A stretch of 34,415 nucleotides of DNA, taken from IMG/VR virus record IMGVR_UViG_3300040806_000451, positions 1-34,415 of that record; one strand, given 5' to 3'. Each line of letters starts with the position of its first letter. The first letter of the stretch is position 1. This stretch comes from a virus. Made by a program: the position numbers and the translations under genes. The notes beneath the pieces are model-generated. The model ran no database searches. It saw only the letters and a list, made by a program, of their open reading frames with translations, and had not been told where the DNA came from. Shown here one piece after another: positions 2,649 to 26,093 of this stretch.

Positions 2649-4061
2649 TTAGCCAGTTAAGTCAATCCTCCATGTACCAACTGGATAATCACCATCTACT
2701 GACTTTAACCATTCATTATCTTTATATCTGTATTGTGTACTAGTATTAAGATTTGTAGTATATACTGTTTTTGTAGATTCACTAGCATCAAATACAATTG
2801 ACCAATTGTTACCGTCCCATTCTATAATGTCGTTTGCACTAGCAAAAAATCCTGTGCTATCGCTATTTTTCCATGCTGCTGGATATTCTGTTGCATCTGG
2901 GCTACTTAAATCGTCTAGTAGTAATAATCGCAAGCCGGCTGTTTTAATAGATGTAGGATTGTAATTCAACGGATCGATAATATAATCAATACTAGTTCTA
3001 TTAGCAATAATAGTGTCTGACGGAAAACTATCAGCATCCCAATTTACGTTAATTATAGTTTCATCAAAAGGATTAAGGGTAAATGTACCAGTTGCTGTAC
3101 TATCATTATCAATGCTTCTAAAGAATACTCTAGATACATCCGAAGCATATGTTCCTGGAAGTGCTATAAATATTTCTCTCCAGTTTTTAACTCCAACGGC
3201 TCCATTTGACACTAATCTTACAGTATCACCATCTACGTATGCTCCAAATGTATTAAAGTTTACGTTAGCTGTCTCACTTGAAATGTCAGTATTTGCTTTG
3301 CGACCAAATCCAGTTTCTACTGTACCAGGCTTAGCAAAGTCGTCGTATTGATTTATTTGAGGAGCACTTATACCAGTATCAATATCACCTCTCGATTCGT
3401 CAAACATTGAAGTAATAACATTTGTAATGACGCCCATTTTTTTAACTTTAGTAGGCGGACTAATATATATTGGAATACTAAACGTAAGTGTTGCTATATC
3501 AATTTCACTATCGACACCTACAGGAATACTTCGATTAGACCATGTTACATTCTCTAAATTTACAACAGTTATACTAGTCCAGTCAATAAAGTTATCAGTA
3601 GTTTGCATTTCTAAACTAGGATTGAATAATACTAGTATTTGCTCTAGTAGTTGTAGTTTTTGATCAGTATTACTTGCCCAAATATCTGCATTTAATCGCA
3701 TCATATAAGGAGTTGGTATTAATCTTTCAACTGTATAGTTTTTGCCTTGATAGTTAAGATATTCTTCGTTTTCTGAATCATATGCACGTTCTCTTATATT
3801 TGTTTTGCGTGTATAAGTAGCATCAGCCAAACGATCTTTATCAAGTTCTAATCCAGTTAAGTACACAGCTATTCTAGGTACAGTTGGAAGTTTATTTTCA
3901 CTGTTTTCTCTAATAATACTTGCTACCTGTCTAGTTAAATCCCCGTAAGTAACTGGGACGTCTTTAACTGCACCTTTACCATCTTTCACTGGAAAGTTAC
4001 TTAGTATGCGCATCATTTGCGTAGTGTATCTTCTTATTTGGCCGTCGTAAAAATGTAACAT
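2649..4061 (-). CDS. gp15: Tail completion / sheath stabiliser protein gp15-like
   Basis: The N-terminal half aligns by eye with T4 gp15: FYDGQIRRYTTQMMRILSNF at 4-23 (T4 FYNSSFRRYATLMGDLFSN), PRIAVYLTGLELD (T4 PRINLHLVDFSYN), and PTPYMMRLNADIW followed by LLEQILVLFNPSLE (T4 PSPIKMIYELSIF, IVEQILPYFQP). gp15 caps the tail tube and sheath as a hexamer and forms the head-tail joining surface. T4 gp15 has 272 residues and this protein has 470. The extra C-terminal part (from about 230) is Asp/Thr/Ser-rich and holds short Trp-containing segments (WDGNNWSIVFD, YRYKDNEWLK) like those in gp14 and gp18 here. Its ATG overlaps the gp14 stop (TAATG). gp14 and gp15 run leftward, opposite to gp13. Confidence 0.85.
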   Translation of the reverse strand: MLHFYDGQIRRYTTQMMRILSNFPVKDGKGAVKDVPVTYGDLTRQVASIIRENSENKLPTVPRIAVYLTGLELDKDRLADATYTRKTNIRERAYDSENEEYLNYQGKNYTVERLIPTPYMMRLNADIWASNTDQKLQLLEQILVLFNPSLEMQTTDNFIDWTSITVVNLENVTWSNRSIPVGVDSEIDIATLTFSIPIYISPPTKVKKMGVITNVITSMFDESRGDIDTGISAPQINQYDDFAKPGTVETGFGRKANTDISSETANVNFNTFGAYVDGDTVRLVSNGAVGVKNWREIFIALPGTYASDVSRVFFRSIDNDSTATGTFTLNPFDETIINVNWDADSFPSDTIIANRTSIDYIIDPLNYNPTSIKTAGLRLLLLDDLSSPDATEYPAAWKNSDSTGFFASANDIIEWDGNNWSIVFDASESTKTVYTTNLNTSTQYRYKDNEWLKSVDGDYPVGTWRIDLTG

Positions 4062-5233
4062 TAATTATCCGCCGTTGGTTTTTTTGGCCTAAGTGCCTTT
4101 GATAGACTTTGTCTTTCTTCAACTTGTTCGCCGTCTATATTACTTGTTGCAGTATTGTTGATAAACGAGGACTTGTAAGTTCTGCGTTCTAGCGTATTGC
4201 TTAGATCCATTCTTAAATTGTCTTCTATCTTTATCCAACGCAAGCCGTCAAATTTAAACATTCTATTTGGAAAAAAATCTGTACGCAAAAAATAATCTCC
4301 GTCTGCATTATCTCTAGGAAATTGTATACCAAAACCAAACGGAGATCCATTTGGCGCATTGCCATCGCCATAGTTAACAAGGTATCCTGAATATCCTGCT
4401 CTATCAGGTCTGTCTGCTATTTCATCTGCATTAATGTTAATGTTGCTTGCATCTAAGTCAGTTTCATCTGCTGTTTGTAGTGCAATATTGCCGTTATCGT
4501 CAGTTGCTATAGAATAATAATGACTAGTGTCAAAACCACTTTTAGGAGCGTCTGCTTCTGCTTGTGCAACTACTGCACTATTAATTTGCATTTCTTTTTC
4601 ATAAGTAGATAATACATCTCTTAATGTTGTATCAGAATCTTCTGATACAGGAAGATCAAGTATTTCTGCATATTCTTGTCCGTCATAAATTTGTTTTAAT
4701 TTTAGTCTATATAAATGTGGATACCATGTTTGACTAAATCCTTCTGCGGCCCGGTTTACATCCTCTACAACATAAAACCGTTTAAGTGAAACATCGTAAT
4801 CATTTAATGCATATTCGTCTTTTAAATGCGGCAATTCAATTACATCGCCGCTCATAATTTTTCTGCCTAATGTCTTTACACTGCTATTAATCGGTATAGT
4901 CATAAACAATGTATCATTACTTAAAAATAACCCAAATTGTGATAGGTCAAAATCAATATCCTGTACATTATAAATGCCGCGCATTGTATAAACATCAGGA
5001 TCGTATTTTCTATCTCTATTTTCTAAGAATAACAAATCTTGTATATTTGTTTCTTTAACAGCATCGTACTCAGGTTGTACAGCACTACGGTCATCTGCAC
5101 TAGGTGTATCAGTACCTAAGTATTTGTGTATGTTAATATCAGTGCCGCCAATGGTAAACATTTCTTGGATTTGCTTGTCCAAAAAGTAATAGTCATTGCC
5201 GCGTTCGGGTTTATATAATGATAGTCTTGGCAT
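4061..5233 (-). CDS. gp14: Neck protein gp14-like
   Basis: The predicted 390-residue product resembles T4 gp14 (256 residues) in order and character: a HKY segment, an ENRDRKYDPDVYTMRGIY segment (compare T4 MRGVECYYVPREYVSPD), SQFGLFLSNDTLFMTIP (T4 SNFGMQVQDEVTLSIN), SGDVIELPHLKDEYAL (T4 EGDLIYFPMDNSLFEI) and Tyr/Leu-rich sequence. gp14 joins gp13 in the neck that closes the filled head and receives the tail. The C-terminal extension contains a DGDYFLR...RMFKFDGLRWIKIE module. I chose ATG at 5233 (MPRLSLY) because it gives the same box-to-ATG spacing of 5 nt as other late genes here. An in-frame ATG at 5239 and a TTG at 5251 lie further upstream, the latter inside the promoter palindrome. Confidence 0.82.
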   Translation of the reverse strand: MPRLSLYKPERGNDYYFLDKQIQEMFTIGGTDINIHKYLGTDTPSADDRSAVQPEYDAVKETNIQDLLFLENRDRKYDPDVYTMRGIYNVQDIDFDLSQFGLFLSNDTLFMTIPINSSVKTLGRKIMSGDVIELPHLKDEYALNDYDVSLKRFYVVEDVNRAAEGFSQTWYPHLYRLKLKQIYDGQEYAEILDLPVSEDSDTTLRDVLSTYEKEMQINSAVVAQAEADAPKSGFDTSHYYSIATDDNGNIALQTADETDLDASNININADEIADRPDRAGYSGYLVNYGDGNAPNGSPFGFGIQFPRDNADGDYFLRTDFFPNRMFKFDGLRWIKIEDNLRMDLSNTLERRTYKSSFINNTATSNIDGEQVEERQSLSKALRPKKPTADN

Positions 5234-5238
5234 ATACA

Positions 5239-5260
5239 TATTTATCGCCAACGATAAATA
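5239..5260. promoter_or_regulatory. Back-to-back divergent late promoters (perfect inverted repeat)
   Basis: TATTTATCG (5239-5247), a 4-base spacer CCAA, then CGATAAATA (5252-5260) form a perfect 9-bp inverted repeat. Each arm is a T4-type late -10 box (GATAAATA), one pointing left to gp14-gp15 and one pointing right to gp13. Rightward, a Shine-Dalgarno TTGGAGA follows about 10 nt before the gp13 ATG. Leftward, the ATG comes 5 nt after the box with no room for one. Confidence 0.8.
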
Positions 5261-6096: not shown

Positions 6097-6603
6097 ATGT
6101 TACCTAAATTATTAGTAATTGGCCATGGTCGACATGGCAAAGATACAGTTTGTGAAATACTAGAAAAAAATTACGGTTATAGTTTTGAGAGCAGTAGCCG
6201 ATTTTGTTCAAAACTTTTTATCTTTGATATGCTGAAAGACAAATATGGTTATTCTAACGAAGAAGAATGCTATGCTGATAGACACAATCATCGTGCTGAG
6301 TGGTATGACGCAATCTGCGATTATAATGAAAGAGATGCAGCAACATTAGGTAGAGAAATATTTAAAGAACATGATATCTATTGCGGACTGCGTAACAAAC
6401 GCGAATTCTTTGCTATGAAAAATACTAATGTTTTTGATTATGCAATTTGGGTAGATAGATCAGATCATTTGCCGCCCGAAGCAAAAGATTCAATGAGCTT
6501 AGAACAATGGATGGCAGATTTTACTATTGATAATAATAGAGACTTAGATCAATTAATGTTCAATACATATCAGTTAATAGAACATCTAAAAGTCCGGAGT
6601 TAA
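6097..6603 (+). CDS. P-loop kinase, probable deoxynucleoside monophosphate kinase (T4 gp1-like)
   Basis: The 168-residue protein begins with a beta strand and the P-loop GHGRHGKDT (9-17), which has the GKDT ending seen in T4 dNMP kinase gp1 (GVKRSGKDT). SSRFCSK, RHNHRAEWYD and WVDRS segments are typical of the short kinase-like proteins of marine T4-like phages. A dNMP kinase would raise dNTP supply for replication. The substrate is inferred; a related P-loop nucleotide kinase is the alternative. Expression from its own consensus sigma70 promoter fits early or middle timing, in contrast to the late genes on both sides. Its last 18 bases overlap the 3' end of the convergent HNH gene. Confidence 0.65.
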   Translation: MLPKLLVIGHGRHGKDTVCEILEKNYGYSFESSSRFCSKLFIFDMLKDKYGYSNEEECYADRHNHRAEWYDAICDYNERDAATLGREIFKEHDIYCGLRNKREFFAMKNTNVFDYAIWVDRSDHLPPEAKDSMSLEQWMADFTIDNNRDLDQLMFNTYQLIEHLKVRS

Positions 6604-7036: not shown

Positions 7037-10000
7037 ATGGCATTAGTATCACCAGGCGTAGAAGTCAGTGTAATTGACGAATCATTCTACACCCCAGCAG
7101 CTGGCGGCACTGTACCTATGATTTTTGTAGCAACTGCTAGTAATAAACTTTCAAGCAGTGGCACAGGAACAGCATCAGGTACAACTAAAGCGAACGCTGG
7201 TCAACCTTACTTAATCACCAGTCAGCGAGAGCTTGGTGAAACATTTGGCGATCCATTATTTTATAGTGACGCCTCGGGCAATATGATCCACGGTGGAGAG
7301 CTTAACGAATACGGACTACAAGCTGCTTATTCGTCATTAGGCGTTTCAAATCGTGCATATGTAGTTAGAGCAGATATTGACTTAGCTGAATTAGAAGCAA
7401 GTGCAACAGCACCAGGCGGCGCCCCAGCAGATGGTGCATGGTGGTTAGACACGCTTGCAAGTGAATTTGGTATTTTAGAATGGAACGGCGCAGCAATTAC
7501 AACTGTAGGCGGACAAACATTTGCAAGTAAAACACACATTGCTATTACATCAAGTGATGACTTAGATGGTAGTGATTTACCTAAACAATCAATTGGTGCT
7601 ATTGGAGATTATGCTATTGATCATTCAAGCAATGATAATAGAGTATTTTATAAGTCACCAGGTTACGGTGCATCACAAGCAACAAGAACAGCAAATGCAG
7701 GCAAATGGGTTGCACTTGGAAGTAACGAATGGGCAGATAGTTATCCAGCAGCAACAGGCTCTAATGCGCCAGCAGCCGTTGATGCTTCACATACAATCGT
7801 ACTAAATGGTGTTTCAGTCGTTGCTGGCGGTACAACATTTACCGATGTAGTAACAGCAATTAATGCAGCGGCGGTAACAGGTATAAATGCCGCGCTAATT
7901 GATAGCAGAATTAAAATTTATGTAGATGCTACAGCAATTGCTGACGAAGGCGGCGTAGGCACTACAGCTACAGGAACAGTTAGTATTGCAGAAGGCACCG
8001 GAACACTAGTAGCAAACTTAGGTTTAACAGCTGGAACATACTCTGCACCAAGAGTGCAAATTGCTCCACACACAAGCGTACCAACTTTTAAGTCTTCAGA
8101 CACGTCACCTGCACCAACAGGCAGTGTTTGGCTTAAAACTACACAACCAAATGGCGGCGCAAACATTAGTGTAAAACAATATTCAGCAGCAGGAGCTGTT
8201 TGGAACAAAGTTGTAACACCAATTTTTAGTAGACCTGAGCAAGCAATTTACGGTTTAGATCCAACAGGCGGCGGCACAAACATCACTGTTGATTCTTTGT
8301 TTGCAGACGTTAATGTTAACGGTACTACACCACCAATTGGAGATTTTAAAATATATCGTAGAAGTGCAATTGGAGCAACTGTAATTACTAGTGCTAAAGT
8401 TTCATCAACAGGTATTACAGCAGCTACATATACATTTACTATTGCAGAAACAACAGCAGCTTCAGCTAGTAAAACATCAGCAGTCACAGTAAGCGTTACA
8501 ACTACTGCTGACATTGCTGATGCAGATACATTAGCTGGTCAAATTAACGCAGCAGGATTAACAAATGTTATTGCTGTAGTTGATGCACAAAACCGTGTAC
8601 AGATTTCACACAAGTTAGGCGGTGAAATTGACTTAGTTGATACCGATGGCGGCTTAGAACTATTTGGCTTTAGTGCAAGTGCAGGCGGAACAACTAACTT
8701 GTATTTTGCTCCAGGCACAACAGCAGCTACATCACCAAAGCAGTTTGTAGCTTCAAACTGGGCACCATTAACTTATACTGCTTCAAATAGCGCACCATTG
8801 AGCTTAACAGCACAAGGCGCACTATGGTACAATTCAATTGTTGACGAAGTTGACATTATGGTACACAATGGTGAAACTTGGGTAGGTCTTGCATATGACG
8901 GAGCGTCAGGTGAAAGCTCAATTGCAAGTCCATTTAGTGGTACAGATCCAGAAGGTCCAATTGTATCAGCAGCTGAACCAAAAACACAAGCAGACGGTGT
9001 ATCAGCACTAGTAACAGGTGATATTTGGATTAGCACAGCAAGCGTAGAAAACTATCCAGTAATTTACAAATACAATGCAACTATTGCTGCAACAGGAGCA
9101 AGTGGTTGGATTTTAGTTGATAAAGCAGATCAAACTACTGAAGATGGAATTTTGTTTGGTGATGCTCGCTATGGCGACACTGGTGGTACAACATTAGTAG
9201 CACCAAATGCAACTATTGCAGAAATGATTACTAGCGATTATTTAGATCCAGATGCTCCAGATCCTGCATTATATCCAAGAGGTATGTTGCTATGGAACAC
9301 ACGTAGAAGTGGTTTCAATGTCAAACGTTTTGAGCGTAACTACGTAGACACTAATGGAACTAACGGACGTTATGGAGATCTAAGCATGAGCAATTATTAT
9401 CCACATCGTTGGGTAACAGACTCAGGCAATAACGAAGACGGTTCAGGAACATTTGGACGTCATGCACAACGCAAGAGTGTTGTACAAGCATTACAAGCAC
9501 TAGTAAACAGTAACCAAGAGATACGTGACGAAGAATCACGTCAGTTTAACTTAATGGCAACACCAGGTTATCCTGAACTAATTGGTGAAATGATTACACT
9601 AAACACTGATAGACGTTTAACATCGTTTGTAGTTGGTGATACACCATTCCGTTTAACACCAGACGCAACTTCATTAAATGAATGGGCATCAAACGTTAAA
9701 CTTGCTGTTGAAGACAACGACAATGGTGCAGTGAGCTTTGACGAGTATATGGCTATGTATTATGGTTCAGGCTTCACAAGTGACAACTTTGGTAATAACA
9801 TTGTTGTTCCTCCAAGCCACATGGCACTACGTACTATTATACTTAACGACCAAGTTGCGTTCCCCTGGTTTGCTCCAGCAGGTACAAGACGAGGCGGTGT
9901 AAGCAACGCAACAAGCTCAGGTTATATTAATAGCGAAGGAGAGTTTGTTTCAGTAGCACTAAACACAGGACAGCGTGATACACTATATTCAAATAAAATT

Positions 10001-10399
10001 AATCCAATTACATTCTTAAGTGGTGCAGGATTAGTAGTATTTGGGCAAAAGACTCGTGCAAGAAATGCAAGTGCATTGGATAGAGTTAACGTAGCACGTT
10101 TGACTGTTTACTTACGTGGACAACTTGAACTATTGGCAAAACCATACTTGTTTGAACCAAATGACAAGATTACACGTGACCAAATTAAAGCAGCGGCAGA
10201 TGCACTGTTATTAGAATTGGTAGCACTAAGAGCTGTTTACGATTACTTGGTTGTATGTGATGAATCAAATAACACAGCAGCTAGAATTGATCGTAACGAG
10301 CTTTATTTAGATGTAGCTATTGAACCAGTTAAGGCGATTGAATTTATTTACATTCCGCTAAGACTTAAGAATACTGGGGAGATTGCTGCACTAGGATAA
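7037..10399 (+). CDS. gp18: Tail sheath protein gp18-like, greatly enlarged
   Basis: The N-terminus (MALVSPGVEVSVIDESFYTP) and the C-terminal domain (INPITFLSGAGLVVFGQKT, LDRVNVARLTVYLRGQLE, KPYLFEPND) are those of contractile sheath proteins. The sheath polymerises around the tube and contracts on infection. T4 gp18 has 659 residues and this one has 1120. The extra mass lies at about 130-700, an Ala/Thr/Gly-rich region built of repeated modules: short Trp-containing units (GAWWLDT near 134, GSVWLKT near 360, GALWYNS near 594, GDIWIST near 661) and two hook-IN-like units (about 248-338 and 481-555). The conserved sheath core therefore carries a large surface insertion, probably on the outside of the tail. 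It has its own late box and a good Shine-Dalgarno. Confidence 0.93.
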   Translation: MALVSPGVEVSVIDESFYTPAAGGTVPMIFVATASNKLSSSGTGTASGTTKANAGQPYLITSQRELGETFGDPLFYSDASGNMIHGGELNEYGLQAAYSSLGVSNRAYVVRADIDLAELEASATAPGGAPADGAWWLDTLASEFGILEWNGAAITTVGGQTFASKTHIAITSSDDLDGSDLPKQSIGAIGDYAIDHSSNDNRVFYKSPGYGASQATRTANAGKWVALGSNEWADSYPAATGSNAPAAVDASHTIVLNGVSVVAGGTTFTDVVTAINAAAVTGINAALIDSRIKIYVDATAIADEGGVGTTATGTVSIAEGTGTLVANLGLTAGTYSAPRVQIAPHTSVPTFKSSDTSPAPTGSVWLKTTQPNGGANISVKQYSAAGAVWNKVVTPIFSRPEQAIYGLDPTGGGTNITVDSLFADVNVNGTTPPIGDFKIYRRSAIGATVITSAKVSSTGITAATYTFTIAETTAASASKTSAVTVSVTTTADIADADTLAGQINAAGLTNVIAVVDAQNRVQISHKLGGEIDLVDTDGGLELFGFSASAGGTTNLYFAPGTTAATSPKQFVASNWAPLTYTASNSAPLSLTAQGALWYNSIVDEVDIMVHNGETWVGLAYDGASGESSIASPFSGTDPEGPIVSAAEPKTQADGVSALVTGDIWISTASVENYPVIYKYNATIAATGASGWILVDKADQTTEDGILFGDARYGDTGGTTLVAPNATIAEMITSDYLDPDAPDPALYPRGMLLWNTRRSGFNVKRFERNYVDTNGTNGRYGDLSMSNYYPHRWVTDSGNNEDGSGTFGRHAQRKSVVQALQALVNSNQEIRDEESRQFNLMATPGYPELIGEMITLNTDRRLTSFVVGDTPFRLTPDATSLNEWASNVKLAVEDNDNGAVSFDEYMAMYYGSGFTSDNFGNNIVVPPSHMALRTIILNDQVAFPWFAPAGTRRGGVSNATSSGYINSEGEFVSVALNTGQRDTLYSNKINPITFLSGAGLVVFGQKTRARNASALDRVNVARLTVYLRGQLELLAKPYLFEPNDKITRDQIKAAADALLLELVALRAVYDYLVVCDESNNTAARIDRNELYLDVAIEPVKAIEFIYIPLRLKNTGEIAALG
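7424..9124 (+). repeat. Protein-level repeat modules inside gp18
   Basis: This part of gp18 encodes repeats visible in translation. Four or five Trp modules share the pattern G-x-hydrophobic-W ... polar ... W-hydrophobic (for example TGSVWLKT...AVWNKVV; AQGALWYNS...ETWVGLAY; TGDIWIST...GWILVD). Two longer units share INAA, a D-x-x-I/V-x-I strand and G-T/E-L...LG/FG. The order IN-like unit, linker, Trp module appears twice, which suggests duplication of a unit of roughly 200 residues. The DNA copies have diverged, so this is an old duplication rather than a recent direct repeat. Confidence 0.6.
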
Positions 10400-10442: not shown

Positions 10443-10450
10443 CATAAATA
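10443..10450 (+). promoter_or_regulatory. Late promoter for gp19
   Basis: CATAAATA lies 23 nt upstream of the gp19 ATG. A clear Shine-Dalgarno AGGAGA follows at 10461-10466, so this transcript has a conventional leader. Confidence 0.7.
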
Positions 10451-11139: not shown

Positions 11140-11180
11140 AAAAAGCGAGGATTGGTTAACGTCAATTCTCGCTTTTCTTT
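11140..11180 (+). terminator. Intrinsic terminator after gp19
   Basis: AAAAGCGAG (11141-11149) pairs with CTCGCTTTT (11168-11176), and inside it ATTG pairs with CAAT, with one mismatch between. The stem is followed by CTTTATATA. A T-rich tail on one side and an A-run on the other make it usable in both directions, and it separates gp19 from the next late promoter. Confidence 0.8.
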
Positions 11181-11202
11181 ATATACGCACTTAATCTATA
11201 AG

Positions 11203-11210
11203 GATAAATA
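11203..11210 (+). promoter_or_regulatory. Late promoter abutting the tube-like gene
   Basis: GATAAATA ends 5 nt (TTTAC) before the ATG at 11216. No Shine-Dalgarno fits in that space, so the mRNA is predicted to start at or next to the initiation codon. Confidence 0.78.
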
Positions 11211-11215
11211 TTTAC

Positions 11216-12430
11216 ATGAGTAATTTAAAAGATGCATTCCTTTTTAATTTAACTGCGGGCACACATTTGCGCGATGCGCAACATGCGCACAAGATTTATA
11301 CCAATAGTAATTTTACTTTTGCCCCCAAACAAAAGTACATGTATCATGTGGTATTTCAACCAAATGCAGAGGTTGGCAATAGCTCAACTGCTAATTCTTT
11401 TCTTTTCCAAAAAGAATTAGGAATACTTGTAAAATCAACAGACTTACCTAGTTTTAGAGCAAGTGTAGAAAATAAACAACAGTACAATAGAAAGAAAAAT
11501 ATTCAAACAAGATTAGATTACCAAGATATTAGAATGACATTACATGATGATAATTTGGGTGCAGTACGTGCAATGCTTAAAGAATATTACAAATATTACT
11601 TTGCTGACGGCAACCGTGGGACGTCAGGTTCACAAGCAGCATATTTGCCAAGAGACAAATATTTTGGTGATGTGCCAAACTACGGTTTAAATAATAAAAA
11701 AAGAACTCCATTTTTTAGTTATATAACAATATATCAACTAGCAAGAAGACAATGGTTTGCATATACATTATTAAACCCTTTACTGTCTGCTTGGGACCAC
11801 GGCAATGTAGATAGTACTGATGGATCATTCAACGAAGCATCAATGTCAGTTGCATACGAAGGCGTGTTATATAGTGAAGGGACAGTGGACCAAAATCCTA
11901 TTGTAGGATTTGGCGATGCCGAAGTTGGTTACGATGTCGAAGAAAGTCCGTTAGGTGTTATTGATAATGCATTAGGCGGTGAATTTGGAGCAGGAGGATT
12001 ATTACCTGCATTACTCGGAGCAGCAGTTAATGAGATGTTCGGCGGCGGAAAAAGTTTTACTTCAAATGCTGGTGCTGCTGTCGTTGCCACTGCCGCTGGG
12101 GCTGTTATTGCCGCAGCAACCGGAGGCTCAACTGGCGTGTATACTACTGATACACAATCTGATACTACAGTATCATCAGCTACTGAATCTAACTCTCCGC
12201 AACTCAATGCAGCAGCAATCATAGCAGCACTAAATGATCCAGCAACAAAAGCATTACTTACACCGGCTTTGATTAATACAGGTGTAATACCGAACGTTGA
12301 TATTAATACATATAACAATGCTACAGCAGTTGAAAAAGCAGCAATAGATCAAAATCTAATTAATCTAATTCAAGGCGGAAATATTCTACTAATACAAACC
12401 GCATCAAACGCACTAGCAGGAGTAGCTTAA
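11216..12430 (+). CDS. Tail-tube-fold protein, probable baseplate-tube junction component
   Basis: In the first 230 residues KSTDLPSFRASVENKQQYNRK (about 73-93) and IRMTLHDDNLGAVRAMLKEYYKYYF resemble tube-family proteins (DLPSF ... QYNRK ... T-hydrophobic-HDDN ... YY). After gp19 the likeliest role is a tube initiator or baseplate hub/tube adaptor (comparable to T4 gp48 or gp54), but I cannot assign which. Residues 260-404 form a different, Ala/Gly-rich tail with a hydrophobic stretch (about 282-304, AVVATAAGAVIAAATGG) that could insert in a membrane. A tail-tip protein with a membrane-active end would be consistent with DNA delivery, but that is inference. Late box 5 nt upstream; stop overlaps the next ATG (TAATG). 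Confidence 0.6.
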   Translation: MSNLKDAFLFNLTAGTHLRDAQHAHKIYTNSNFTFAPKQKYMYHVVFQPNAEVGNSSTANSFLFQKELGILVKSTDLPSFRASVENKQQYNRKKNIQTRLDYQDIRMTLHDDNLGAVRAMLKEYYKYYFADGNRGTSGSQAAYLPRDKYFGDVPNYGLNNKKRTPFFSYITIYQLARRQWFAYTLLNPLLSAWDHGNVDSTDGSFNEASMSVAYEGVLYSEGTVDQNPIVGFGDAEVGYDVEESPLGVIDNALGGEFGAGGLLPALLGAAVNEMFGGGKSFTSNAGAAVVATAAGAVIAAATGGSTGVYTTDTQSDTTVSSATESNSPQLNAAAIIAALNDPATKALLTPALINTGVIPNVDINTYNNATAVEKAAIDQNLINLIQGGNILLIQTASNALAGVA

Positions 12431-13278: not shown

Positions 13279-13785
13279 ATGACTAAAAAATTAGAAGATC
13301 TTCTCAACTTGCCTGACGCAAAAGAAATTATACAAGACGCAGAAGCTCAAGAAGAAGAACAACAAAAATATGAAATAGAAGAAACTAATAAAACAATGCG
13401 TGACATTGCAGAGTTTGATAAAATTAGTTCAGCACTTCCGCATGTAAAAGGCCTAGGCGATATGGCCGATAAAGAATTAAATGAAGTTGCAAATAAAGCT
13501 ATGACAGCATACGAAGATCTAATGGATTTAGGCATGAATGTAGAACAGCGTTATAGTGGTAGAGTATTTGAAGTTGCTGGGACTTTTCTTAAAACAGGAC
13601 TAGATGCTAAAGTTGCAAAACTAGACAAAAAACTCAAAATGGTAGAGCTACAACTTAAAAAAGAAAAAATGGATAAGGACGGAAAAGTTGGCCTTGATGA
13701 CGGTATGATCAACGGCGAAGGATATGTAGTTACTGATAGAAACAGTCTATTAGAGAAACTAAAAGGCCTTGATAAAGATAAATAA
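13279..13785 (+). CDS. gp16: Terminase small subunit gp16-like
   Basis: The 168-residue protein is about the size of T4 gp16 (164). It has an acidic N-terminus (MTKKLEDLLNLPDAKEIIQD), a highly charged Gln/Glu stretch, a central helical region (ELNEVANKAMTAYEDLMDLG, then VFEVAGTFLKTGLDAK) and a coiled coil KLDKKLKMVELQLKKEK (about 115-131), matching the oligomerising coiled-coil layout of T4-type small terminases. gp16 forms rings that recognise concatemeric DNA and stimulate gp17. Two genes separate it from gp17, whereas in T4 they are adjacent. The identification rests on architecture and position, so moderate confidence. Its last two codons plus stop form the next late promoter. Confidence 0.72.
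   Translation: MTKKLEDLLNLPDAKEIIQDAEAQEEEQQKYEIEETNKTMRDIAEFDKISSALPHVKGLGDMADKELNEVANKAMTAYEDLMDLGMNVEQRYSGRVFEVAGTFLKTGLDAKVAKLDKKLKMVELQLKKEKMDKDGKVGLDDGMINGEGYVVTDRNSLLEKLKGLDKDK
13777..13784 (+). promoter_or_regulatory. Late promoter overlapping the gp16 stop
   Basis: The last codons GAT-AAA and the TA of the gp16 stop form GATAAATA. The next ATG (13812) is 27 nt downstream and has a Shine-Dalgarno AGGACAGGA. Confidence 0.68.
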
Positions 13786-13811: not shown

Positions 13812-14372
13812 ATGAGATCATTTAAAGAAATATTAACAGAATCAAAAAAGACATACGGATTTAAAATCGGTATTGCTGGACCAGATTGTACGCCCGAGTG
13901 CGTAGAAAGAATGGAAACTGCACTAAAGAAATACAGTGTTGTAAATATTACGCCAGGCAAGAAAACACCAATCCAAGAACGTCCTTTAGATTTTCCGCAA
14001 TTACAAAATATGGAAGTTACTTACTTTGAAGCAGAAGTTGAATATCCAACTACTAGTCAAGTACTACAAGAATATATAGGTCGTTGTTGTGGACTTGATC
14101 AAGCATATATTATTGTACGTAATGTTAATGATCCAAGAGAAGAATACCAAGAAACCAAAGACGATGCTCCATATGAAGCAATGCTTACAAAAGAAGACAT
14201 GGGCGGCGAGTCTGCACAAGATAACGTTGCAGGAAATCGTGTTATGGATTTATTAAAAGAATTAGAAATAGCTCGCAAAGAAAATGAACACAGTGGTGCA
14301 GAAGGTGCACCAGTTGGAGAGTCATCTGATATTAGCGATGAAGAAAATACTAAAGCAGTTGTAGGAGGCTGA
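13812..14372 (+). CDS. Probable virion protein with capsid-targeting-like N-terminus
   Basis: The 186-residue product starts MRSFKEILTES. This has the spacing and character of the T4 capsid-targeting sequence that sends internal proteins into the prohead (MKTYQEFIAE): Met, basic, Ser/Thr, aromatic, Gln/Lys, Glu, two hydrophobics, Ala/Thr, Glu. A compact alpha/beta region follows (FKIGIAGPDCTPECVERMETALKK; VTYFEAEVEYPTT; GLDQAYIIVRN) with a ferredoxin-like strand-helix alternation, then an acidic, disordered C-terminus. If the N-terminus is such a signal, prohead protease gp21 would be expected to cleave it and the protein would be packaged in the head. Function otherwise unknown. Late promoter upstream; 4-base gap to the next gene. 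Confidence 0.6.
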   Translation: MRSFKEILTESKKTYGFKIGIAGPDCTPECVERMETALKKYSVVNITPGKKTPIQERPLDFPQLQNMEVTYFEAEVEYPTTSQVLQEYIGRCCGLDQAYIIVRNVNDPREEYQETKDDAPYEAMLTKEDMGGESAQDNVAGNRVMDLLKELEIARKENEHSGAEGAPVGESSDISDEENTKAVVGG

Positions 14373-15570: not shown

Positions 15571-15597
15571 AATAGGCTCTTCGGAGCCTATTTTTTT
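15571..15597 (+). terminator. Intrinsic terminator (UUCG tetraloop)
   Basis: AATAGGCTC (15571-15579) and GAGCCTATT (15584-15592) form a perfect 9-bp stem closed by C(TTCG)G, an exceptionally stable tetraloop, and run into seven T residues (15591-15597). It ends the gp16-to-391-residue-protein transcript one base before the gp17 late box. Confidence 0.93.
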
Positions 15598-15598
15598 C

Positions 15599-15606
15599 AA
15601 TAAATA
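15599..15606 (+). promoter_or_regulatory. Late promoter abutting gp17
   Basis: AATAAATA ends 5 nt (TACGT) before the gp17 ATG at 15612, with no Shine-Dalgarno. The terminator U-tract ends at 15597, so termination and initiation elements are directly juxtaposed. Confidence 0.78.
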
Positions 15607-15611
15607 TACGT

Positions 15612-17192
15612 ATGGCAGCATCATTAGACGGCGTCTTAATTAAAAAGGCGAACAAACAAGAAACTTTTACTGAAGAGCAAATTCAGGACCTTACAGCCTG
15701 TATGGATCCTGACGAAGGATACTTACATTTTGCTCGTCACTTTGCTTATATACAACATCCTGTAAGAGGTAAGTTGATATTTGATCCTTATGAATACCAA
15801 TTGCGTCTAATGCATAGCTATCATACTTACCGTTTTAATATTAACATGATGCCTAGACAAACAGGTAAAACCACATGTGCTAGTATCTATCTTGCATGGT
15901 ATGCAATGTTTAATTCAGACCAAACAATTCTTGTTGCTGCACACAAATATACAGGTGCGCAAGAAATTATGGCACGTATACGTTATGTATATGAAACATG
16001 TCCTGATCATATTAGAGCAGGTGTTACGTCATACAACAAACAATCAATTGAGTTTGAAAATGGATCACGTATTGTAGCACAGACTACAACAGGAAATACT
16101 GGACGTGGTATGAGTATCTCGTTACTGTACTGCGACGAGTTTGCATTTGTGCAGCCAAACATTGCAGAAGAGTTTTGGACTTCAATATCACCTACACTAG
16201 CAACAGGTGGTCGTGCTATTATTACTAGCACACCTAACTCAGATGAAGATACATTTGCTACTATTTGGAAACAAGCAGAACAAAAGTTTGATGCCCACGG
16301 CAATGAACAAGAGCTAGGTATAAATGGATTTCATAGTTTTGTTGCTGAATGGCACGAACATCCTGACCGTGATGACAAATGGAAGGAAGAAGAAATTGGC
16401 CGTATTGGCGAGGAGAAGTTTAGACGTGAATATGGTTGTGAATTCCTAGTATTTGATGAAACACTAATTAATTCAATTAAACTTGCTGTACTTGAAGGTA
16501 AAAATCCAATGTTAAATATGGGTCAAACCCGTTGGTACAAAAAGCCTACAAATCAATATACATATGCTGTAGCACTTGATCCTAGTATGGGCACCGGAGG
16601 AGATTATGCAGCAATACAAGTTTTTGAACTACCAAGCTATGAACAAGTAGCAGAATGGCAACACAATCAAACAGCTATACCTGGACAAGTTCGTGTACTA
16701 TCTGATATATGTAAATATTTAGAACAAGAAACAAATAACCCACAGGGTATATATTGGAGTGTTGAAAATAACGGCATTGGCGAAGCATGTCTAATTGTTA
16801 TTAACGATTTTGGCGAAGAGAACATACCTGGACTTTTTGTAAGTGAACCAATGCGTAAAGGGCATGTAAGAAAATTCCGCAAAGGATTTAATACTACACA
16901 TAGTTCAAAAGTTACAGCATGTAGCAGACTAAAAACTATGGTTGAAAATGATAAAATGACAGTTAATTCAAAGTCATTTATTAGCGAACTAAAAGGATTT
17001 ATTGCAACAGGATCAAGTTATCAAGCAAAGCCTGGTTTATCTGATGATCTTGTTAGTGCAACGTTACTTGCAATAAGGATGATGGATGTATTGAAAGATT
17101 GGGATCCTAGGGTATATAATACTTTTACACAAACAGAAGATTTAGAAGATTACGAAGCGCCAATGCCAATCTTCATTAGCAGTAACTATTGA
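15612..17192 (+). CDS. gp17: Terminase large subunit gp17
   Basis: The 526-residue packaging motor (T4: 610) has an N-terminal ATPase with Walker A PRQTGKTT (81-88), Walker B LLYCDEF with D175-E176, and the coupling motif TSTPN (206-210). The C-terminal RNase H-like nuclease has D323 in ALDPSMGTGGD, D331, E385 (VENNG) and D478/D479 (SDDLVSATL) as the metal-binding acidic set. gp17 docks on the portal, cuts concatemers and drives headful packaging. It is shorter than T4 gp17 at the N-terminus. The ATG follows the late box by 5 nt, and no other Met occurs before residue 31, so leaderless initiation at this codon is the likely mode. Confidence 0.95.
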   Translation: MAASLDGVLIKKANKQETFTEEQIQDLTACMDPDEGYLHFARHFAYIQHPVRGKLIFDPYEYQLRLMHSYHTYRFNINMMPRQTGKTTCASIYLAWYAMFNSDQTILVAAHKYTGAQEIMARIRYVYETCPDHIRAGVTSYNKQSIEFENGSRIVAQTTTGNTGRGMSISLLYCDEFAFVQPNIAEEFWTSISPTLATGGRAIITSTPNSDEDTFATIWKQAEQKFDAHGNEQELGINGFHSFVAEWHEHPDRDDKWKEEEIGRIGEEKFRREYGCEFLVFDETLINSIKLAVLEGKNPMLNMGQTRWYKKPTNQYTYAVALDPSMGTGGDYAAIQVFELPSYEQVAEWQHNQTAIPGQVRVLSDICKYLEQETNNPQGIYWSVENNGIGEACLIVINDFGEENIPGLFVSEPMRKGHVRKFRKGFNTTHSSKVTACSRLKTMVENDKMTVNSKSFISELKGFIATGSSYQAKPGLSDDLVSATLLAIRMMDVLKDWDPRVYNTFTQTEDLEDYEAPMPIFISSNY

Positions 17193-17198
17193 TAAATA
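17191..17198 (+). promoter_or_regulatory. Late promoter overlapping the gp17 stop, abutting the next gene
   Basis: GATAAATA overlaps the last two bases of the gp17 TGA stop (17190-17192) and ends 4 nt (CAAT) before the ATG at 17203. No Shine-Dalgarno is present in between. Confidence 0.75.
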
Positions 17199-25303: not shown

Positions 25304-25311
25304 TATAAATA
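25304..25311 (+). promoter_or_regulatory. Late promoter inside the glycan cassette
   Basis: TATAAATA is a perfect T4 late consensus and ends 5 nt (TCTAC) before the ATG of the nucleotidyltransferase-cupin gene. No Shine-Dalgarno is present. The downstream half of the cassette is therefore predicted to be expressed late, like virion genes. Confidence 0.82.
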
Positions 25312-25316
25312 TCTAC

Positions 25317-26093
25317 ATGAGCAATGTTGTATTAGTTAGTGGCGGCTTTGATCCCTTACACTCAGGGCACATAGCCTATTTTAAAGAAGCAAAAAAACTA
25401 GGTTCAAAGCTAGTAGTAGCATTGAATTCGGACGATTGGCTAACACGTAAAAAAGGTAGACCATTTATGTCTTTTGAAGAACGTGCAGCAATTGTAAAAG
25501 AGTTAACAGTAGTAGACGAAGTTATCGGTTTTGACGACAGCGATGATAGTGCATGTCAAGCAATTTTTCAAACATTAAGCACACACGGATCAGGTAGTAA
25601 AGTAATATTTGCCAACGGCGGAGACAGGACAAATTTCACGACGCCTGAATACAAAATTTACGGTAGTATGCCTTATGTAGATTTTGCATTTGGCGTCGGT
25701 GGTGAAAATAAAGCTAATAGCAGTAGTTGGATATTAGACGAGTGGAAAACACAAAAAACAGAACGTAACTGGGGTTATTGGCGTGTGTTAGATCACAAAC
25801 CTGAGCAAGGATACAAGGTAAAAGAGCTTGTAATATATCCTGGCAAAAGTTTAAGTGATCAAAAACATTTTAAACGTTCTGAACAATGGATAATATTAGA
25901 AGGTGTTGTAGATATGAAAACCGAATGGAAGTCTACACCTAGCACAGTATTATTAGAACCGCACAGAATGCCTTACGAGATTGACAAGGAAGTTTGGCAT
26001 AAGGCTTCTAATCCTGGAGATACAAATGCACATATTTTAGAAATCCAATGGGGCGCCGAGTGCATTGAAGAAGATATTGAAAGAAGAGACTAA
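25317..26093 (+). CDS. Nucleotidyltransferase-cupin fusion
   Basis: Residues 1-135 are a cytidylyltransferase-superfamily domain: VSGGFDPLHSGHIAYF (7-22, HxGH H15-H18), LNSDDWLTRKKG (36-47) and ANGGDR (99-104), closest to HldE domain 2 and glycerol-phosphate cytidylyltransferases. Residues about 150-258 are a cupin like the C-terminal part of type II mannose-6-phosphate isomerases: WGYWRVL, YPGKSLSDQKHFKRSEQW (H184), WIILEG. The fusion suggests one protein that activates a sugar phosphate and also isomerises or binds it. The substrate is unknown; heptose, glycerol or mannose phosphates are candidates. It has its own late promoter and a TAATG overlap with the next gene. Confidence 0.82.
   Translation: MSNVVLVSGGFDPLHSGHIAYFKEAKKLGSKLVVALNSDDWLTRKKGRPFMSFEERAAIVKELTVVDEVIGFDDSDDSACQAIFQTLSTHGSGSKVIFANGGDRTNFTTPEYKIYGSMPYVDFAFGVGGENKANSSSWILDEWKTQKTERNWGYWRVLDHKPEQGYKVKELVIYPGKSLSDQKHFKRSEQWIILEGVVDMKTEWKSTPSTVLLEPHRMPYEIDKEVWHKASNPGDTNAHILEIQWGAECIEEDIERRD

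Follow-up and report, generated by a model that had tools for sequence, protein, structure and literature searches.

Late transcription in phage T4 is a textbook system, and its mRNAs carry leaders and ribosome-binding sites. T4 late promoters work with gp55, gp33, and gp45 and are marked by the box TATAAATA at positions −13 to −6 (PMC2988020; PMC1524935), of which position −13 is variable (PMC1524935). The box lies ∼12–35 nucleotides (nt) before the ATG, mostly with a Shine–Dalgarno sequence between them, and no strict box lies at 4–6 nt. At T4 gene e, a late promoter/hairpin switch couples translation to late initiation, and early read-through RNA is poorly translated (PMC3014915) with its Shine–Dalgarno sequence hidden in the hairpin. 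Bacterial leaderless, TA-led genes have a −10-like signal ∼10–12 bp before the start, use only AUG, and lack a Shine–Dalgarno sequence (PMC3160421; for S. meliloti, PMC3616915). In Lactococcus cremoris, leaders are either <5 nt or ∼40 nt long, with none between 4 and 14 nt (PMC10986495).

The locus described here shares features with each of these systems. It lies on a 34.4-kb IMG/VR virus fragment ("the window," meaning the whole stretch of DNA analyzed) that carries genes for the structural and packaging proteins of a T4-like phage. Named products are Ad2, sheath, two tube-like proteins, head closure, terminase, ssDNA-binding protein, UvsX, and UvsY. The closest cultured relatives of the terminase, at 53% identity, are those of the jumbo phages PA5oct and MIJ3. 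As in T4, structural and packaging genes are preceded by the late box, whose predicted distance from +1 is identical, and gp55 relatives are present in most of the long relatives. In contrast to T4, a fixed set of genes has the box flush against the ATG. This set resembles TA-led genes in signal position, AUG usage, and lack of Shine–Dalgarno sequences, but the signal is a phage late box, only phage genes are involved, and the arrangement is conserved gene by gene across phages. An empty interval of spacings recalls L. cremoris, although there the leaders were measured in the host bacterium and here they are deduced from phage sequence. Unlike gene e, read-through RNA would here carry no ribosome-binding site at all. 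Our main reading, to which we assign a probability of roughly 0.87, is that T4-type (gp55-dependent) late promoters start transcription on the A of the start codon, or at most ∼3 nt from it, and so would yield leaderless late mRNAs.

Late boxes of the window

The original prediction was that five late genes share the arrangement ATAAATA-N4/5-ATG, where N is the number of nucleotides between box and ATG. All five boxes are present where they had been placed:

5239–5245, minus strand: late box before gp14, N5 to ATG 5233, in the context GATAAATA
4061–5233, minus strand: "gp14," 390-residue head/packaging virion structural protein (phrog_11591, E = 2e-84), predicted leaderless late gene
11204–11210, plus strand: late box before the tube-like gene, N5 to ATG 11216
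11216–12430, plus strand: second tail-tube-like protein (weak matches to phrog_13438/4542/45), predicted leaderless late gene
15600–15606, plus strand: late box before gp17, N5 to ATG 15612
15612–17192, plus strand: large terminase gp17 (phrog_36964, E = 2e-119), predicted leaderless late gene
17192–17198, plus strand: late box before the 798-residue gene, N4 to ATG 17203, sharing one base, the final one, with the gp17 stop codon
17203–19599, plus strand: 798-residue virion structural protein (phrog_13484, E = 1e-17), predicted leaderless late gene
25305–25311, plus strand: late box before the NT-cupin gene, N5 to ATG 25317, with the full TATAAATA from 25304
25317–26093, plus strand: nucleotidyltransferase (HldE-like)-cupin gene (phrog_7878, E = 2e-29; "cupin" is the label of the original prediction), predicted leaderless gene

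For gp14, the site, the N5 spacing, and ATG 5233 stand, whereas the extent first given for the box (5247–5239) includes two surplus upstream bases. The only match of its 390-residue product is to the generic head virion-structural family phrog_11591; the name gp14 is used below as a label.

The late boxes precede late genes, including those for terminase, the tube-like protein, and head structural proteins. ATAAATA is exact at all five sites, and the full TATAAATA, with T at −13, occurs only at the NT-cupin gene. The motif is depleted in the window (11 sites versus 20.1 expected from shuffles), and five of the 11 copies sit N4/5 before the ATG of an ORF. As a window control, the 20 other 7-mers composed of these letters have a mean of 0.10 and a maximum of one such site. 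Dinucleotide shuffles of the window, with any ATG counted, give a mean of 0.86 and a maximum of four, and if the nine upstream boxes were placed uniformly, the observed N4/5 sites would have P = 4e-6. Chance and AT-richness as causes are thus ruled out by the controls for motif permutation, shuffling, and spacing.

Other late genes of the same phage were expected to have normal leaders with Shine–Dalgarno (SD) sites, and such leaders are seen at Ad2/gp13, the tube gene, and the gene at 13812:

5254–5260, plus strand: leadered late box of Ad2/gp13, true start 5278, N17, SD GGAG, divergent from gp14
10444–10450, plus strand: leadered late box of the tail tube gene, start 10474, N23, SD AGGAG, for comparison
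13778–13784, plus strand: leadered late box of gene 13812, N27, SD AGGA, for comparison

The mechanical ORF call for Ad2, at 5218, should be 5278. Between 5233 and 5278, two back-to-back late promoters serve divergent genes within 44 bp, one predicted to be leaderless and one leadered.

Spacing and start regions across relatives

Box-to-ATG distances for ORFs of at least 60 residues were collected from 160 loci found in two viral-contig scans. A wider set, extended by NT-cupin and HTVC008M scans and by whole records, comprises 320 related IMG/VR loci, three long relatives, and the cultured SAR11 (Pelagibacter) phage HTVC008M. Counting these distances in related genomes had been proposed as a check on the prediction, and the resulting distribution is sharply bimodal, with a peak at N5 and an empty interval. 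In the 160 loci (1.97 Mb of relatives), site counts, which include related sequences and are therefore less safe than counts per family, are 53 at N4, 210 at N5, three at N6, and zero at N10–12, with a broad hump from N16. Counted as protein families in the wider set, there are three at N4, 30 at N5, four at N6, three at N7, seven at N8, zero to two at each of N9–12, and a broad group of leadered families at N17 and above. Phylogenetic pseudo-replication as the source of the peak is ruled out by the family counts and by the independent HTVC008M clade.

Which class a gene falls into is fixed per gene. Among the 160 loci, N4/5 is found for 22/22 terminase, 74/82 tube-like, 20/20 NT-cupin, and 74/93 798-residue genes, and N5 for 58 of 81 gp14 genes, the remainder in part reflecting a second ATG counted for the same site. 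Orthologues of the sheath, tube, Ad2, 13279, and 13812 genes are nearly all at N13–48. Among box-bearing orthologue records in the wider set, N5 accounts for 60/71 gp14, 76/76 tube-like, and 75/76 NT-cupin genes. The gp17 box varies in relatives as NTAA[A/G]TA at N4 or N5, and N4, N5, and N7 all occur among 798-residue orthologues. Unlike in T4, position −13 in this group mostly has G in place of T. Spacings of N6–N8 are found in six of 53 members of the 798-residue family and three of 30 gp2 genes, so leaders of 1–3 nt need to be allowed.

Start codons at N5 in the wider set are almost exclusively ATG (406 ATG, no GTG, one TTG). Shine–Dalgarno pairing is near zero in four of the seven leaderless families and weak in three: mean anti-SD duplex energies are ∼0 for gp14, NT-cupin, and HTVC008M gp2 and gp48, −1.5 to −2.9 kcal/mol for the other three, and −3.6 to −7.6 kcal/mol for leadered families. 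AAGG stands ∼13–17 nt upstream of the tube-like ATG and could serve as a long-spaced Shine–Dalgarno sequence on read-through RNA. No consistent difference in the strength of 5′ structure was seen between leaderless and leadered genes.

In σ70-family promoters, a −10-type box sets initiation a few bases downstream. Because such a box fixes initiation nearby, any plausible start would leave a leader of a few nt at most. With the T4 box at −13 to −6, N5 places +1 on the A of ATG, as the original prediction had calculated in agreement with the published position (PMC1524935). Alternatively, +1 could be shifted in this gp55 group to give very short leaders (1–8 nt) on mRNAs that are not truly leaderless. 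That N4, N5, N7, and N8 all occur, partly inside one gene family, and that 1-nt shifts between orthologues are tolerated would fit such leaders. However, the dominance of N5 among families, with only three to seven at each of N4 and N6–N8, implies that one register must matter, and the leadered boxes have purines at positions 6–7 past the box, where +1 is expected. Initiation upstream of a −10-type box is, to our knowledge, not known. We regard this explanation as very unlikely; late mRNAs with predicted leaders of 0–3 nt are strongly supported by the sequence patterns.

Terminators and start-codon swaps

At two of the five genes, the DNA just upstream of the box carries an intrinsic terminator:

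11141–11181, plus strand: intrinsic terminator between the tube and tube-like genes, terminator-like in 53/55 orthologues
15571–15598, plus strand: intrinsic terminator, a hairpin followed by a T tract that ends 1–2 nt before the gp17 box, with strong covariation

In most relatives, the order at gp17 is hairpin-T7, 2–3 bases, NTAA[A/G]TA, N4/5, and ATG. All cells (100%) show the 9-bp hairpin as paired; 34 pair changes are double-sided, none of the pairs is broken, and pairing is lost in a control in which the partner is slid. A terminator lies just upstream in 42/55 gp17 and 53/55 tube-like orthologues and almost never in the other families tested. Since terminator and box adjoin, the terminase and tube-like mRNAs must start between the terminator and the ATG. 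The gp14 gene diverges from Ad2 with 44 bp between them and is therefore fed by no same-strand gene.

Natural swaps separate the box from the start codon. For gp14 in five relatives (L087, L109, L118, L120, and L126), the box and the following TGTATA are unchanged and the ATG is at N17 behind AGGAGA. In L056, gp17 has a TTG start at N15 behind AAGGA, and three distant orthologues of HTVC008M gp48 are at N21–26. In these swaps, loss of the flush position goes together with gain of a ribosome-binding site. Two further gp14 orthologues, L130 (∼9975–10010) and L013 (reverse strand, ∼12526), have the leadered AGGAGA form without ATG, GTG, or TTG at the swap position; the only in-frame ATG overlaps the box.

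These data bear on a second alternative, in which ATAAATA is a translation element that substitutes for a ribosome-binding site on longer read-through mRNAs and is not the promoter of the gene that it precedes. AT-rich sequence around starts generally aids initiation, and the 798-residue and NT-cupin genes lie close behind same-strand genes with which they could be cotranscribed. Against a translation element, terminators adjoin the box at gp17 and the tube-like gene, gp14 is divergent, and the box stays in place in the swaps while the ATG moves. Furthermore, other late genes have the motif 17–40 nt upstream together with a Shine–Dalgarno sequence, and permutations of the same letters give no comparable peak in either the window clade or HTVC008M. 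We give this proposal only a slim chance. A third, that the start codons are wrong and the real starts lie downstream behind Shine–Dalgarno sequences with the box-adjacent ATG accidental, has a negligible probability: a few gp14 orthologues do use a downstream ATG, but N-termini are conserved, changes from codon 2 onward being mostly synonymous (655:229 for gp14 and 1390:188 for gp17), and HTVC008M was independently annotated at the same codons. This codon bias is weak in the fast-evolving tube-like and HTVC008M genes.

Spacing, gene-specific conservation, restriction to ATG, absence of Shine–Dalgarno sequences, terminators, and swaps all point to the distinct, conserved class of predicted leaderless late mRNAs that had been proposed. 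In the mechanism that we favor, gp55 would recognize the box, +1 would fall on the A of ATG, and ribosomes would initiate at the 5′-terminal AUG without a Shine–Dalgarno sequence. The remaining late genes would use the same box 17–40 nt before the ATG, with a leader and a Shine–Dalgarno sequence, intermediate leader lengths being avoided. Such an arrangement could plausibly act as a lock: read-through RNA would lack a ribosome-binding site for these genes, and their protein would be made only when the late promoter itself fires.

Distribution among phages and implications

T4 and Syn9 have no strict N4–6 late box before any gene, and for S-PM2, P-SSM2, S-RSM4, KVP40, and several jumbo phages the count barely exceeds, or does not exceed, that of a reversed-pattern control. 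HTVC008M, whose host is Ca. Pelagibacter ubique HTCC1062, has nine strict N5 sites; those compared with the independent annotation coincide exactly with its starts, and the genes include CsgF, tape measure, gp2, gp48, baseplate wedge proteins, and the gene that follows the major head protein. Predicted 5′ ends in this phage fall on the A of the ATGs at 6280, 7562, 16007 (minus strand), 18916 (minus strand), 19456, 31132, 49760, and 75559. Its clade has 58 distinct N5 sites and none at N9–16. Melnitz-2, whose host is OM43, has four N5 matches versus none in the control, one of them at the annotated start 62263 (minus strand). The Pseudomonas phage PA5oct was rejected as a strong cultured case because just two of its N5 sites precede ORFs, which is no more than permuted motifs achieve. 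One PA5oct structural gene, gp262, has TATAAATA-N5-ATG at 144973–144987 (ATG at 144985) and looks real.

Late promoters in pelagimyophages were not found by the method used for cyanophages (PMC7029224), and flush boxes may be the reason for that failure. Relatives of gp55 (phrog_234) occur in 13/13 cultured phages searched and in five of six long relatives; none was detected in the longest, the 275-kb G001, and the five shorter ones each have one. G001 also has N5/N6 boxes of relaxed consensus before radical SAM and UDP-glucose dehydrogenase genes (L178, L180, and L184), and these accessory metabolic genes may be members of the leaderless class.

A gene for ribosomal protein bS21 lies in G001 at 181826–181981 (L252), and a scan with this protein for host inference found no relative. 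Phage bS21 is present in G001, HTVC008M, PA5oct, Phosso, Atu_ph07, and Vibrio 2.275.O. A tight link between bS21 and the class was rejected, because Phosso and 2.275.O carry bS21 but have no N5 sites. A broader proposal is a second, leaderless late translation program in marine T4-like phages of heterotrophic bacteria. A conserved subset of genes would be expressed only from AUG-initial mRNAs, selectively through altered conditions of initiation (phage bS21-bearing or 70S ribosomes, for instance), and would be proof against read-through expression. We consider this extension unlikely, and the idea of special ribosomes, which the original prediction had raised as possible 70S initiation late in infection, is speculative, bS21 being found in some carriers, not all, and in phages without the class.

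The open-access literature searched yielded no prior report of leaderless T4-type late genes. The arrangement is real, conserved across hundreds of genomes, and apparently undescribed for T4-type phages. Both components are of known kinds; as far as that literature goes, their combination and gene-specific conservation are new. In a large marine group that includes a cultured SAR11 phage, promoter choice and translation start seem to be one element. This would show how these phages gate production of terminase and virion proteins, and it would offer better annotation of start codons and a ready system in which leaderless translation could be tested in abundant marine bacteria.
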